This document shows positions 6,226 through 11,527 of a DNA stretch of 42,541 nt, in pieces (the stretch's first letter is position 1; each line of letters begins with the position of its first letter). The DNA is from Candidatus Zixiibacteriota bacterium (GTDB lineage: Bacteria; Zixibacteria; MSB-5A5; UBA10806), in the NCBI GenBank assembly GCA_024641335.1, contig JAHEDG010000023.1:1-42541 (forward strand), in the 5' to 3' direction. The notes beneath the pieces were generated by a model. The model was not told the DNA's origin. It ran no database searches and saw only the letters and a program-made list of their open reading frames with translations. The translations under genes and the position numbers were made by a program.

Positions 6226-8028
6226 CTACGAAGCCGAGTTGAGCTGTTGTTCGAGCATATACCGTTTATACAGCCGGGCGTAATGGCCGTCGGCCGTCAT
6301 CAGCTCGAAATGGCTGCCCATTTCGATTATCCGGCCCTCATCAAGGACTATTATTCGGTCGGCCTTTTCGAGAACGTCAGGACGATGGGTGATTAGAATA
6401 ATGGTCATACCGGGCATAACCCCGCCAAGGCTGTCCCATAACCGCTTTTCGGTGCGCGAGTCCAAAGCCGACGTGCAATCGTCGAGAATGAGGATTTTCG
6501 GTTTCCCGGCCAGGGCTCTGGCCAGAGCCAGTCTCTGTTTTTGTCCGCCGGAGATGGACATTCCCCGAGTGCCTATCTGGGTCTCTCGCCGTTTCGGAAA
6601 GGTCTCGATCTCCGCTTGAAGTTGAGAGATATCGATTGCCCGATCGACATCGGATTCGGTTATGTCACCTCGGCCGAAGAGAACGTTGCTTTTTACAGTA
6701 TCGGAAAACAGGACCGGTTCCTGAGGCACGAATCCTATCGCGTTACGAAGATCCTCGAGCCTGTACTCAGACAGATCGCGGCCGTCGAGACGGATGCTTC
6801 CCCGCGTTGGATCGACCAGCCGGGCGATCATGGCGGCTAACCAGCTCTTGCCCGAACCGACCCTGCCGACCAGGGCCGCGGTCTGACCCGGCAGAATCTC
6901 GAATGAGACATCGTCGATTATCTTCCGCTCGCTTTCGGGAAAACTGAATTCCACATTGGAGAAAACCAGATGTCCCCTGATATCGCCGTTATTGGGTATT
7001 GTGCCGGCATCCGCGACCATCGGCGGGACTTTTTCGAATTCGACCAGCCTATCGATGGATACCGCCGATTGACGTGATTTTACCAAAAACTGTCCGATAT
7101 CAAACATCGGGAATACGAGGTAAACTACATAGTATATAAACGCCACTAACTTGCCTAATGAGAGATCGGACTTGATCACCATGTAGCCGCCGGCCAGCAA
7201 AACGATTATAATCCCCACCTGCCAGATATACATATAAAGCGAATCTACGATGGCGACCGCTTTGATTGTGGATATCTCGGCGTCGCGCCTATCGGCTGCC
7301 GCCTCATGGAATTTCCGTTTCTGGGCGCTCTCCTGGACATAAGCCTTAACAACCCTTATCCCCGAAAAGCATGATTCCATTACGGCGTTGAACCTGGATA
7401 TCCGGGTTTGCAGATAGTCGTAACGTTTATCCAGAGCCGCCGAGCTTTTGAAAAATATGAAAATCAATATCGGCAGAGGGCCGGCGGTCCAGAGTGTCAA
7501 TACCGGATCGATCGAGATCATCATGGCGATAGTGAATCCGGCGAGCATTAAGGCCTCATAAAACCGGAAAATTCCCGAACAGGCAAACCATGAGAGCTTC
7601 TCGGCCACGTCATCGGTGAGCCGGGTAATAATATCCCCGTTCCTGAATTTGTTAAAGAAATCGGGGCCTTTTTCGGTAATCCCGCAAAACGCCTTTTGCC
7701 TGAAATCCCATTCAAGCCTCGTATTCATCCAGGCCCTGTGCGATTGGATAAAAGAGTATATCAAAGTCGCCACCGCTCCGAATATCACCAGAGCCAGGGC
7801 GAATGAGGCGGCGCCGGTAAGGCCCCATCCGGTTCCTGTTTTGTAAATCCACTGAGCCACGCGGTTGGGGGATACCTGTCCTGTCTTCACCAGATCGATT
7901 GTGAACTCGGCCAGACGAGGTATAAAAACATGGAGGAAGGTCTGAACCGGAGTTAATATCAGAAGAACAAGAAGGATATAGGGATATTCTCTGTAATATC
8001 GCCAGATCCATTTTATCTTATCTATCAT
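6226..8028 (-). CDS. ABC exporter half-transporter with degenerate Walker B (TM287-like subunit)
   Basis: This 600-residue protein has about six membrane helices (residues 15-325) followed by an ATPase domain. Walker A is GRVGSGKS (388-395), the Q-loop is GFVPQEP, the signature is ISGGQ (492-496) and Walker B is ILILDD (512-517). The usual catalytic glutamate is Asp517. In heterodimeric exporters such as TM287/288 and BmrCD, one subunit carries exactly this substitution at the non-hydrolytic site. Its ATG overlaps the stop of the partner gene (ATGA, 8025-8028), so the two are co-translated. The exported molecule could be a lipid, a peptide or a drug; polysaccharide export is not implied by the family. 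Confidence 0.93.
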   Translation of the reverse strand: MIDKIKWIWRYYREYPYILLVLLILTPVQTFLHVFIPRLAEFTIDLVKTGQVSPNRVAQWIYKTGTGWGLTGAASFALALVIFGAVATLIYSFIQSHRAWMNTRLEWDFRQKAFCGITEKGPDFFNKFRNGDIITRLTDDVAEKLSWFACSGIFRFYEALMLAGFTIAMMISIDPVLTLWTAGPLPILIFIFFKSSAALDKRYDYLQTRISRFNAVMESCFSGIRVVKAYVQESAQKRKFHEAAADRRDAEISTIKAVAIVDSLYMYIWQVGIIIVLLAGGYMVIKSDLSLGKLVAFIYYVVYLVFPMFDIGQFLVKSRQSAVSIDRLVEFEKVPPMVADAGTIPNNGDIRGHLVFSNVEFSFPESERKIIDDVSFEILPGQTAALVGRVGSGKSWLAAMIARLVDPTRGSIRLDGRDLSEYRLEDLRNAIGFVPQEPVLFSDTVKSNVLFGRGDITESDVDRAIDISQLQAEIETFPKRRETQIGTRGMSISGGQKQRLALARALAGKPKILILDDCTSALDSRTEKRLWDSLGGVMPGMTIILITHRPDVLEKADRIIVLDEGRIIEMGSHFELMTADGHYARLYKRYMLEQQLNSAS

Positions 8029-9824
8029 GTGGCTGTCACCCCATTCTTGTATTGCAGATGGAAAAGCCGGGAATAGTACCCGTTATTCAGAATCAGCTCC
8101 GTATGAGTTCCCCTCTCGATAATCTCACCTCGCTTAATTACCAGGATCTCATCCGATTCCAGAATAGTGGAAAGACGGTGCGCTATCACCATCGACGTTC
8201 TGCCGGCCATCAGCTTCTTCATCGATTCTTGTATTGTTCTTTCGGTTTCGGGATCGACCGAACTGGTGGCCTCGTCGAGAATCAACAGGTCGGGATCGTT
8301 GACCAAAGCGCGGGCGAACGATAAGAGCTGACGTTCTCCTCGGCTGAAATTGGCTCCTTTTTCGGAAACCTCTGTTCGGTATCCATCGGGCAGTCTGCTG
8401 ATAAAGCGATGAGCATCGACCGTACGCGAAGCCGTCAGGATTTTCTCCTCGGTTATGCCGTCGGAATCGAGAGCGATATTGTAATTAATATCACCGGGGA
8501 AAAGCACGATATCCTGAAGCACCAGCGAGAATTTCCGGCGAAGGTCTTCCCGGGCGATATCTCTGATATCTATCCCGTCCACGGTAATCCTCCCCTTCTG
8601 CGGATCGTAGAGACGGTACAGCAGGGAAATAACTGTTGTTTTTCCGCCGCCTGTCGCTCCGGCCAAGGCCAGCTGTTTTCCCTTTCGGATTTCAAAGGTG
8701 GCGTCCTTCAAGGCGTAATTCTGATCGCCGTCATAGGAGAACCAGACATTCTCGAATCTGATACCCTGTTCGAGACCTTTCCAGGCTACCGGCTTGAGCG
8801 GATCGGAAATGATCTGTTTTTCCGAGAGGAGCGCGAAAATCCGTTTGGCTCCCGCCAGCGATTTCTGAATGACCGTAATCTGCTCGGAAGCGCGGTGGAT
8901 CGGCTCGTAGGAGCGCCAGATAAGAATGATAAACATGCTGATAGTTCCCACTGTCATATCGCCCGACTCTATCCAAAGGGCGCCGAGATACAAGACCAGG
9001 CCGATCATCAGATATTCGAGAAAAAAGACGACATTGGAAAACAAAGTTCCTGCGATGTGAACAAAAGACTCGTCTTTGAATTTCATTCTGTTGGCCGTAT
9101 CGAACTTCTGTCTGGCATATTCCTGCCTGTGAAATATTTGAATAATCGACATCCCATGCAGAAACTCGGTCAGAGCGGCGGTAATCTCAGCCATCTTCTT
9201 TCGCACGCTTAAGAACCTGGCGCTGGTCATTTTGTGGAATATATATACCAGGGTCCCTACCAACGGCACGATCCAGAAGAGGATCGCGGCCAGTTTCCAG
9301 CTGTAGTAAAACATAACCCCGAAGATTCCGGCCACGAGGATCATATCCCCGATCAACATGATCACGGTATTGGTAAAGAGCATCCTTAATGAATCGGTAT
9401 CCGATTCCACGCGCGCCATCAGTCTTCCCGTGGGATTTTTATCGAAAAAAGATACGCTGGATGAGAGTATATGGTTGAACAGTGTCTCCCTCAGATCGAT
9501 CAATATATCCTGCCCGATTATCTCCAGCCTGACTCTCTGAATATACTGGAGGATCAGATTGGCTCCCTGCATGAGGGCGATAAAAAAGACAGTCACCAGC
9601 AGACCGCGGTAGTCTCCGGCGGCGATAGAGTTATCAATCCCCATTTTGAGCAGTATCGGCCAGGAAACCGAAAGCGCGGTGGCCCCGGCCAAAAGCAAAA
9701 GGCATATGAATAAACCGATCTTGAACGGTTTTAGGAGAGGCAGAAGCCGGTTGAGGGCTTCCCGGGCACTAAGATCCCGTTCTTTATCTATTGTTTTCTC
9801 ATTTTCGTAAAAAGCGCTTATCAT
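8025..9824 (-). CDS. ABC exporter half-transporter with catalytic Walker B and atypical signature (TM288-like subunit)
   Basis: This 599-residue half-transporter has six helices in residues 30-320, then Walker A GATGGGKT (389-396). The signature motif is FSRGE (493-497) instead of LSGGQ. Walker B is LLILDE with Glu518, and the H-loop His is at 549. An altered signature in the subunit that keeps the catalytic Glu is what heterodimeric exporters show: this subunit supplies Walker A/B to the active site and the weak signature to the degenerate site. AGGGAAAG precedes the ATG at 9824. Upstream lie a terminator and a leader ORF with alternative base pairing (9868-10103), suggesting regulation by attenuation. 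Confidence 0.93.
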   Translation of the reverse strand: MISAFYENEKTIDKERDLSAREALNRLLPLLKPFKIGLFICLLLLAGATALSVSWPILLKMGIDNSIAAGDYRGLLVTVFFIALMQGANLILQYIQRVRLEIIGQDILIDLRETLFNHILSSSVSFFDKNPTGRLMARVESDTDSLRMLFTNTVIMLIGDMILVAGIFGVMFYYSWKLAAILFWIVPLVGTLVYIFHKMTSARFLSVRKKMAEITAALTEFLHGMSIIQIFHRQEYARQKFDTANRMKFKDESFVHIAGTLFSNVVFFLEYLMIGLVLYLGALWIESGDMTVGTISMFIILIWRSYEPIHRASEQITVIQKSLAGAKRIFALLSEKQIISDPLKPVAWKGLEQGIRFENVWFSYDGDQNYALKDATFEIRKGKQLALAGATGGGKTTVISLLYRLYDPQKGRITVDGIDIRDIAREDLRRKFSLVLQDIVLFPGDINYNIALDSDGITEEKILTASRTVDAHRFISRLPDGYRTEVSEKGANFSRGERQLLSFARALVNDPDLLILDEATSSVDPETERTIQESMKKLMAGRTSMVIAHRLSTILESDEILVIKRGEIIERGTHTELILNNGYYSRLFHLQYKNGVTAT

Positions 9825-9867
9825 GGTCTTTCCCTGTTTTCATTTTCCAATTAACGCGGGAAATAAA

Positions 9868-9898
9868 AACCCGCCGAACATCTGGTGCGCGGCGGGTT
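9868..9898 (-). terminator. Intrinsic terminator / attenuator hairpin before the ABC exporter
   Basis: On the minus strand a 9-bp GC-rich stem, AACCCGCCG (9898-9890) with CGGCGGGTT (9876-9868), encloses a 13-base loop. It runs straight into a T-rich tract (TTTATTT), the form of a Rho-independent terminator. It lies 43 bases before the exporter ATG rather than after a large gene, so it would stop transcripts before they enter the exporter genes. Confidence 0.75.
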
Positions 9899-9950
9899 AA
9901 AAATACTATCTTCTGAAATCTTAGTTCATAGATACACTTCTCCCGCCGCG
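9888..9950 (-). promoter_or_regulatory. Putative antiterminator pairing competing with the terminator
   Basis: The segment CGCGGCGGG at 9950-9942 (codons 16-19 of the leader ORF) is a perfect complement of CCCGCCGCG at 9896-9888, which includes most of the terminator's 5' arm. The two pairings cannot coexist, so the RNA has two states: leader segment paired with the terminator arm (read-through), or terminator formed (stop). This is the layout of ribosome- or ligand-controlled attenuation. The complementarity is seen directly; the switching is inference. Confidence 0.5.
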
Positions 9951-9997
9951 TGCACACCCGGAAGCAGAACAGTTTTATTTTCCAGGTAGTTAATCAT
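9926..9997 (-). CDS. Putative 23-residue leader peptide of the ABC exporter attenuator
   Basis: The ATG at 9997 opens a short frame, MINYLENKTVLLPG then VHAAGEVYL, ending in TGA at 9926. GGAGG at 10014-10010 lies 12 bases upstream, a little far but usable, and an in-frame TAG directly before the ATG fixes the start. The codons for H16-A17-A18-G19 form one arm of the putative antiterminator. A leader peptide in front of a heterodimeric ABC exporter recalls bmrB before bmrCD of Bacillus subtilis, though no sequence similarity is claimed. No protein family was recognised, and it may be a chance ORF. Confidence 0.35.
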   Translation of the reverse strand: MINYLENKTVLLPGVHAAGEVYL

Positions 9998-10073
9998 CTA
10001 AGTATCGATCCTCCGCGACGGTTAAAACTTTAATTTTTCTTCTACCTACGAACTCTTTATTTATTTGTTTCGA

Positions 10074-10103
10074 AAAATACTAATATTTTATCGGCCAGGT
10101 CAA
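10074..10103 (-). promoter_or_regulatory. Sigma70-like promoter of the ABC exporter leader
   Basis: On the minus strand TTGACC (10103-10098) is followed after 18 bases by TATTTT (10079-10074). Transcription would begin near 10067, giving a leader of about 200 bases to the end of the terminator. It lies directly after the stop of the RNase gene, making the exporter leader an independent transcript. Confidence 0.4.
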
Positions 10104-10132: not shown

Positions 10133-11527
10133 CTAAAATTTTAATTTGAAGCTCTGCCCATATTCCGGAATAACCACGTCCCATCCGAAATGCTGCCTGA
10201 TTTTCTCCGCCAGGGAGACGGCCGCCTGGGGCTCTCCATGGACCAGAAAGGTTTTTTCCGGAGGATGATTGAAAGCCATGAGCCAGGCTAAAATCTCATT
10301 GTAATCGGCATGGGCCGAGAAACCGGTGATCATCTCAATTTTGGCCTTTACAGGAACCTGCCGGCCGTGAATTTTGATATATTCGCTGCCATCCAAAATC
10401 GCTCTCCCGCGGGTACCTTCGGCCTGATACCCTATAAACAAAACAGTATTCTCTTTATGGGGCAAACGGTTCTGCAGATGATGAAGTATCCGTCCGCCGG
10501 TAACCATACCACTGGCCGAAACTATAATAGCGGGATTTTTTACCTGGTTAATCGCTTTCGAATCATCCCTCGATTTGCAAAGATGAAGCTCCCGAGGCTG
10601 AAATATCTTTTTCCCTGTCAGGGTCAGCGCCCGCCCGGTCATATTCTGATCGACGATACGCCTTTTGAATATCTCCATAGCGTCAATGGCCATAGGCGAA
10701 TCGACATAAACCGGCAGTGACGGTATCTTCCCCTTCTCCTCCAGTTCCCTGATCATATACAAAAGCGCCTGGGTTCGTCCCACGGCGAAAGAAGGTATAA
10801 CCAGGACTCCTTTTCTTTCCACGCTTTCGTTGATCACTCTCGCCAATTCCAAATCAACCGGCCGGTCGTCGTGGAGACGTTGTCCGTAGGTCGATTCCAG
10901 CACCAGGTAATCGACATCGTAAACCTGTGCCGGGTCTCTTAAAAGCAGGCTGTTGGGCCGTCCCAGGTCTCCGCTGAAAACTATCTTTCTCGAATCGGCG
11001 CCGTTGACTGTTTTGATATCGACTATCGACGATCCCAGAATATGTCCGGCATCCTTGAATTTCAGGCGCAGATCATCGCCAACATAGGAATCTTCCCCGT
11101 AATGCAGAGGCGAAAAATATGTCAACGCCTTTTCGGCGTCGGCGGTGTCGTACAGAGGCTTGGCCGGTTTATGTTTTGAAAATCCCTTTTTATTGGCCCA
11201 GCGGGCATCCTCCTCCTGGAGATAAGCGCTGTCTTTCAGCATTATTTCGCAAAGATCATAGGTAGCGTCGGTACAGGCGATTATCCCTTGAAAACCGTCG
11301 GCGCAAAAACGGGGCAGATACCCGGAATGGTCTATATGGGCGTGGGTCAAAAGAACCATATCGATATCCGCCGGGGAAACCGGAAACGGATCCCAGTTTT
11401 TTAAACGAAGTTCCTTCGGCCCCTGAAAAAGCCCGCAATCGATCAGAAATTTCCGGTCCTGGATCTCCAGAAGAAATCTTGAACCGGTTACTGTTCCGGT
11501 GGCGCCATAAAATGATATTCTGTCCAT
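10133..11527 (-). CDS. MBL-fold/beta-CASP RNA-processing hydrolase (YSH1/CPSF family)
   Basis: This 464-residue protein has the metal-binding motif HAHIDH (62-67), the further motifs SGDLGRP and ESTYGQR, and the beta-CASP motifs AVGRTQALLY, SASGMVTGGR, SAHADY and LVHGE. This complete set belongs to the COG1236 branch of metallo-beta-lactamase RNases and exonucleases. It probably cleaves RNA in the cytoplasm using two zinc ions. The ATG start at 11527 has AAGGGATG upstream, and a TTGAGA-17-TATATT promoter lies at 11613-11585. It has no obvious link to glycan synthesis; it is likely a housekeeping gene inside the region. Confidence 0.93.
   Translation of the reverse strand: MDRISFYGATGTVTGSRFLLEIQDRKFLIDCGLFQGPKELRLKNWDPFPVSPADIDMVLLTHAHIDHSGYLPRFCADGFQGIIACTDATYDLCEIMLKDSAYLQEEDARWANKKGFSKHKPAKPLYDTADAEKALTYFSPLHYGEDSYVGDDLRLKFKDAGHILGSSIVDIKTVNGADSRKIVFSGDLGRPNSLLLRDPAQVYDVDYLVLESTYGQRLHDDRPVDLELARVINESVERKGVLVIPSFAVGRTQALLYMIRELEEKGKIPSLPVYVDSPMAIDAMEIFKRRIVDQNMTGRALTLTGKKIFQPRELHLCKSRDDSKAINQVKNPAIIVSASGMVTGGRILHHLQNRLPHKENTVLFIGYQAEGTRGRAILDGSEYIKIHGRQVPVKAKIEMITGFSAHADYNEILAWLMAFNHPPEKTFLVHGEPQAAVSLAEKIRQHFGWDVVIPEYGQSFKLKF

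Follow-up and report, generated by a model that had tools for sequence, protein, structure and literature searches.

The described leaders closest to the locus examined here are bmrB and vmlR of Bacillus subtilis, together with cplR. Translation of the bmrB leader, which is 162 bp long, holds its terminator within the coding region, and is separated from bmrC by 119 bp, is required for lincomycin induction of the heterodimeric exporter bmrCD, and antibiotic-slowed ribosomes yield read-through (PMC4191407). At vmlR, lincomycin-stalled ribosomes on the codons AUG AUU AAC disrupt an anti-antiterminator, which leads to read-through (PMC9226507); the vmlR uORF (MIN) and cplR are precedents of tested function (PMC9226507, PMC10201436). 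The window that we analyzed, a stretch of 42,541 nucleotides, comes from Zixibacteria, where it forms contig 11 of a 2.86 Mb genome, and it carries a leader that is very probably a ribosome-mediated, trp/vmlR/bmrB-like transcription attenuator for an exporter operon. An earlier note on this DNA had likened the leader to bmrB. That likeness stands for the layout, with a leader ORF, anti-antiterminator, antiterminator, and terminator ahead of a heterodimeric ABC exporter, but not for the ORF itself: bmrB runs to ~54 codons and has the terminator inside it, whereas the ORF found here measures 20 to 31 codons across complete leaders and, in the leaders read, stops short of the terminator. We therefore consider that the leader would work like bmrB, without filing it as bmrB; the order of the exporter subunits is also reversed here, with the BmrD-like subunit first, the phylum is unrelated, and no peptide similarity is claimed.

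All leader elements lie on the minus strand, and those that the earlier note had listed (a promoter-like pair, GGAGG, a 23-codon ORF, and a terminator) were all present at the coordinates it gave. The promoter-like pair (10074-10103) consists of TTGACC (10103-10098) and TATTTT (10079-10074) with a spacer of 18 and is followed, near the predicted transcription start, by a presumably functional GAAAC motif (10067-10071), which most orthologous leaders also have downstream of the -10 box. Region 1 (CCGTCGCG, 10014-10021), the predicted anti-antiterminator arm, pairs with region 2 over 8 bp and overlaps the first G of the leader Shine-Dalgarno sequence (GGAGG, 10010-10014). The leader ORF (MINYLENKTVLLPGVHAAGEVYL, 9926-9997; 23 codons, stop TGA) contains region 2 (CGCGGCGGG, 9942-9950), the 5' arm of the predicted antiterminator, whose partner is region 3 (CCCGCCGCG, 9888-9896), a segment common to antiterminator and terminator. 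We confirmed that 9950-9942 is a perfect 9-base complement of 9896-9888, inside the 5' arm of the terminator. The intrinsic terminator (AACCCGCCG ... CGGCGGGTT plus a T run; 9865-9898, hairpin 9898-9868) stands 43 bases before the exporter ATG. A possible outer helix joins a 5' arm (AGTTCGTAGGTA, 10043-10054), which contains a recurrent CGTA motif, to a 3' arm (9923-9934) covering the leader stop codon, a 12-bp pairing of 10054-10043 with 9934-9923 in the window. This helix and region 1 (10021-10014) had been overlooked previously. Simple promoter and terminator scans scored little above shuffles in the leader region of the window, and the single-sequence fold of the full-length leader was moderately better than shuffles (z -2.4), which is not decisive; it is the comparison of orthologous loci that places the predicted layout far beyond chance.

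The gene directly downstream of the leader encodes ABC exporter subunit A (8025-9824, minus strand, 599 aa), with a catalytic Walker B Glu (LLILDEA) and a degenerate signature (FSRGE), and subunit B (6226-8028, minus strand, 600 aa) follows it without a gap, with Asp at the position of the Walker B Glu (LILDDC) and a signature of the canonical form (SGGQ). The product of the downstream gene is an exporter of the ABC_membrane plus ABC_tran architecture. Such an asymmetric ATP-site pattern is typical of heterodimeric exporters. The nearest bacterial solved relatives are TmrA, TM0288, and BmrD/YheH for subunit A and BmrC/YheI, TmrB, and TM287 for subunit B, and together the two form an exporter of the heterodimeric TM287/288, TmrAB, and BmrCD type. 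Subunit B adjoined A in 59 of the 61 loci examined and was not found in the available DNA of the other two. The leader is accordingly placed ahead of, and predicted to control, a heterodimeric ABC exporter with asymmetric ATP sites, for which drug transport is putative.

Upstream of the leader lies a gene for an MBL-fold beta-CASP RNase-like protein (10133-11527, minus strand), which resembles the aCPSF1 and type VII CRISPR Cas14 models at scores below their curated cut-offs. Because this gene has the same orientation as the leader and ends at 10133, the hairpin could in principle be its plain terminator, accompanied by a fortuitous repeat; we give this reading almost no credence, as a promoter-like pair separates the gene from the leader, with TTGAC preceding 68 of the 69 Zixibacteria leaders, and it is contradicted by the covariation of regions 2 and 3 described below.

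For the comparison, orthologues of exporter A were drawn from GTDB genomes and the class, and the upstream DNA was examined. There were 94 non-redundant loci, and a complete leader (terminator, region 2, and ORF) was found in 82; those left out were mainly affected by masked N or contig ends or belonged to the distant families f5 and f17, in which no such leader was recognized. Approximately 85 non-redundant orthologous exporter loci carry the same leader, in Zixibacteria and in records titled Eisenbacteria (L019, L023, and L026), and it is also found in unclassified bacteria (L022 and L025). The order common to these leaders is the TTGAC promoter, region 1 (ACCG..), the Shine-Dalgarno sequence, the ORF with region 2, and the terminator. 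In the Zixibacteria leaders a GAAAC-like motif usually lies 28 to 33 nt past the start of TTGAC. Most leaders also have a CGTA(A) motif (10050-10047 in the window) ~20 to 25 nt past the GAAAC start motif.

Covariation of the arms in orthologous loci had been named beforehand as the test of the proposal, and the result was positive. In an alignment of 66 leaders, regions 2 and 3 were paired in 91.9% of cells, compared with at most 54.5% when the partners were slid, and 47 double-change cells were counted versus 16.7 in shuffles, none of 500 of which reached 47. The pairing score also fell when regions were swapped between loci (own-versus-foreign z 13); permutation tests of this kind remove shared ancestry only in part, and the same compensations recur in different families. 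Examples of compensation include L010 and L021 (GC[GA]ATGGGC with GCCCGTTGC), L017 (TAAGCGGG with CCCGCTTA), and L033 (ACGACGGG with CCCGTCGT). The terminator pairing, 3:4, was present in 93.9% of cells, with 34 double-change cells versus 8.6 and double changes at 5 of 9 pairs. The suggestion that antiterminator and terminator compete is thus borne out to the extent that 2:3 and 3:4 both covary across orthologues. For 1:2, the own-versus-foreign z was 6.6 (reversed control, 0.2; other control segments, 0.1 and -2.4), and some lineages have this pairing only weakly or not at all. When 69 leaders were folded, 2:3 was dominant before region 4 is made, and 1:2 together with 3:4 prevailed in the full transcript.

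Two further helices were considered. The outer helix, tested as the 5' segment against the linker that follows region 2, gave an own-versus-foreign z of 4.3 (reversed control, 1.3). Many leaders (L005, L011, L084, L094, L099, and others, the window not being among them) have a TGTGA-N6-TCACA palindrome at the leader stop codon. A CRP-like reading of this palindrome was rejected, as some leaders (e.g., L091) have unrelated complementary arms instead; given this replacement, the element behaves as an RNA hairpin, and its arms scored as such with z 4.8 (control, 1.5).

Conservation of the small ORF was then assessed with a start codon picked solely by Shine-Dalgarno sequence and position, that is, blind to frame. 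The predicted ORF stayed open across region 2 at 79 of the 80 loci, versus 39.5 expected from shuffles. The median distance from the leader AUG to the start of region 2 is 49 nt, the stop codon ends ~20 nt past region 2, and ~26 nt separate the end of the ORF from the terminator. The 12-base Shine-Dalgarno spacing in the window, which had been considered the weak point of the leader peptide, falls inside the 4-to-14 range of the orthologues, as obtained by a loose motif search. By its sequence the leader has the components of an attenuator of this general kind: a predicted terminator, an antiterminator exclusive with it, an anti-antiterminator (weak in some lineages), and an ORF over the switch.

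The peptide itself is unconserved, with 26 synonymous versus 135 non-synonymous codon differences spread evenly over codon positions. Together with changes of frame over region 2, these counts rule out peptide conservation as an explanation. In most leaders, region 2 translates as [RC][GD]G[RG], with Arg sometimes written CGG or CGA rather than AGA, and it might be supposed that a conserved peptide end, RGGR, stalls the ribosome on a signal; this nascent-peptide arrest would fit the varying Arg codons. We consider it quite unlikely, though: five leaders read region 2 in a different frame (HAAG, NAAG, YAAG, and FAAG), among them the window, which encodes HAAG where most relatives have RGG or CGG, and a stall at that point would cover region 2 and favor termination. 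The frame change in these five leaders indicates that the constraint at this point acts on the RNA and not on the peptide. Acidic residues are strongly depleted from codon 2 to region 2 in the leader ORFs of 69 loci, despite the unconserved sequence (2.1% versus about 12 to 14%); the N-terminal parts of the long ORFs at these loci, mostly exporter genes, contain 14.5% Asp plus Glu.

The three-hairpin logic of 1:2, 2:3, and 3:4, mutually exclusive and coupled to a leader ORF, is that of trp-type attenuators, and covariation of 1:2 and 2:3 would suit a classical trp/his-type device that senses one uncharged tRNA. Unlike trp-type leaders, however, these have no regulatory codon run, region 2 lies within the ORF, and the middle of the ORF is unconserved; the composition before region 2 differs between lineages, with changes that are mostly non-synonymous, and the controlled gene is an exporter rather than a biosynthetic gene. 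An amino-acid attenuator of this type is therefore very unlikely. No particular codon or amino acid was enriched along the leader that could name a signal.

Conservation was found instead at the start of the peptide, which follows the pattern M-I/N/T/L-N/K/R. At codon 2, 34 of the 82 leaders have Ile (background, 10%; 12% in 43 other genes bearing a Shine-Dalgarno sequence), and at codon 3, 53 of the 82 have Asn, Lys, or Arg (background, 17%; 21% in the same 43 genes), with synonymous codons used for these residues. The window leader begins AUG AUU AAC, and the start of the vmlR uORF, AUGAUUAAC, equals these first three codons, a resemblance and not shown homology; the M-I/K/R-N/K patterns of ABCF leader uORFs likewise recur in Zixibacteria leaders. 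As in the vmlR and cplR leaders, a ribosome stalled after initiation is proposed here to block the anti-antiterminator and permit the antiterminator. The uORFs of those leaders, in contrast, have 3 to 4 codons and precede genes for ABCF ribosome-protection proteins, whereas the present ORF continues through region 2 and precedes a membrane exporter. In mechanism, vmlR and other ABCF leaders may be as near a parallel as bmrB.

A leader that acts independently of translation, either as a ligand-binding riboswitch or by binding a protein, with the small ORF being incidental, was also weighed. The motifs GAAAC and CGTA recur upstream of the ORF, the outer helix covaries weakly, and a terminator/antiterminator pair would suit the platform of such a switch. 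Against this are the open ORF, its Shine-Dalgarno sequence, its set spacing from region 2, and the pattern conserved in its first three codons; moreover, no compact conserved aptamer core was seen, and no Rfam family matched the leader at the gathering threshold, with permissive thresholds returning chance-level matches only. We regard a translation-independent leader as improbable.

Many leaders have, in addition, a very short ATG ORF that ends between 35 and 14 nt upstream of the leader start (45 of 82 loci versus 17.4 ± 3.4 in shuffles). Carriers include L094, L125, L131, L162 to L168, and others, with peptides such as MR, MKR, MKH, and MS, and the end of this mini-ORF adjoins region 1; in family f18 it has 12 to 15 codons. 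The window is without one, and the mini-ORF is hence dispensable. Its role may be that of a second sensor or of a means to load ribosomes near region 1.

A covariance model of the leader was searched against 132 genomes (the phylum-level set being identical to the class here) and found a single copy in the genome of the window. Matches above 40 bits precede exporter A wherever the downstream gene is readable; three lie at contig ends, where the exporter gene breaks off just past its start, and two stand before truncated copies of exporter A. In one genome (G069, minus strand, ~6727-6818), a second full leader (L171) stands before a truncated exporter A of 320 aa, and the same genome has an intact copy. 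The top match outside the exporter (L178, 39 bits) was discarded as a false positive: it is a gene for an RRM-type RNA-binding protein, whose Gly-rich end is followed by a terminator. It sets the noise level of the model at ~39 bits. A plasmid search returned no match, and a search of the literature on attenuators and leader peptides together with Zixibacteria found no paper mentioning the phylum.

For the ribosome-mediated attenuator that we favor, we infer the promoter start and the following order of events. The RNA would begin near 10070 and by default end at the terminator, giving a transcript of ~200 nt. A freely running ribosome would cover region 2 and then sit at the stop codon, on the stretch that separates this region from region 3; with region 2 kept from region 3, 3:4 would form and transcription would end. 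A ribosome held on the first codons would mask the Shine-Dalgarno sequence and region 1 and leave region 2 free, in which case 2:3 would form before region 4 exists and polymerase would read into the exporter genes. When no ribosome is loaded, the 1:2 pairing would act as the anti-antiterminator and favor termination. In folding with a ribosome at the stop codon (15 nt either side), 2:3 was still allowed in the kinetic window, and the steric separation of the two regions is argued.

The unconserved middle of the ORF and its conserved start suggest that the sensed event occurs at or just after initiation. By analogy with the known leaders, the natural signal would be a ribosome that a drug-like compound has halted directly after initiation, and stalling by a drug that targets the PTC is the favored form of that signal. 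More tentative, and possible rather than probable, is a fuller reading in which the attenuator is phylum-wide and uses the M-I/N/T/L-N/K/R start, convergently with the vmlR MIN uORF, to sense ribosomes that are halted at initiation or directly afterwards. In many lineages it would be preceded by a second start-stop mini-ORF (e.g., MR, MKR, or MS) whose stop abuts region 1, such that two successive translation events would be read by one antiterminator.

With these results, a heterodimeric exporter of an uncultured phylum comes under predicted ribosome-sensing control, which has been kept through most of the phylum and in neighboring groups. If the drug-sensing reading is true, inducible efflux in response to ribosome-targeting compounds would be old and would reach beyond the Firmicutes. 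With its covariance model and its conserved start tripeptide, the leader offers a directly testable sensor, and the matched leader/exporter pairs may offer a route to learning which natural compounds uncultured Zixibacteria meet.
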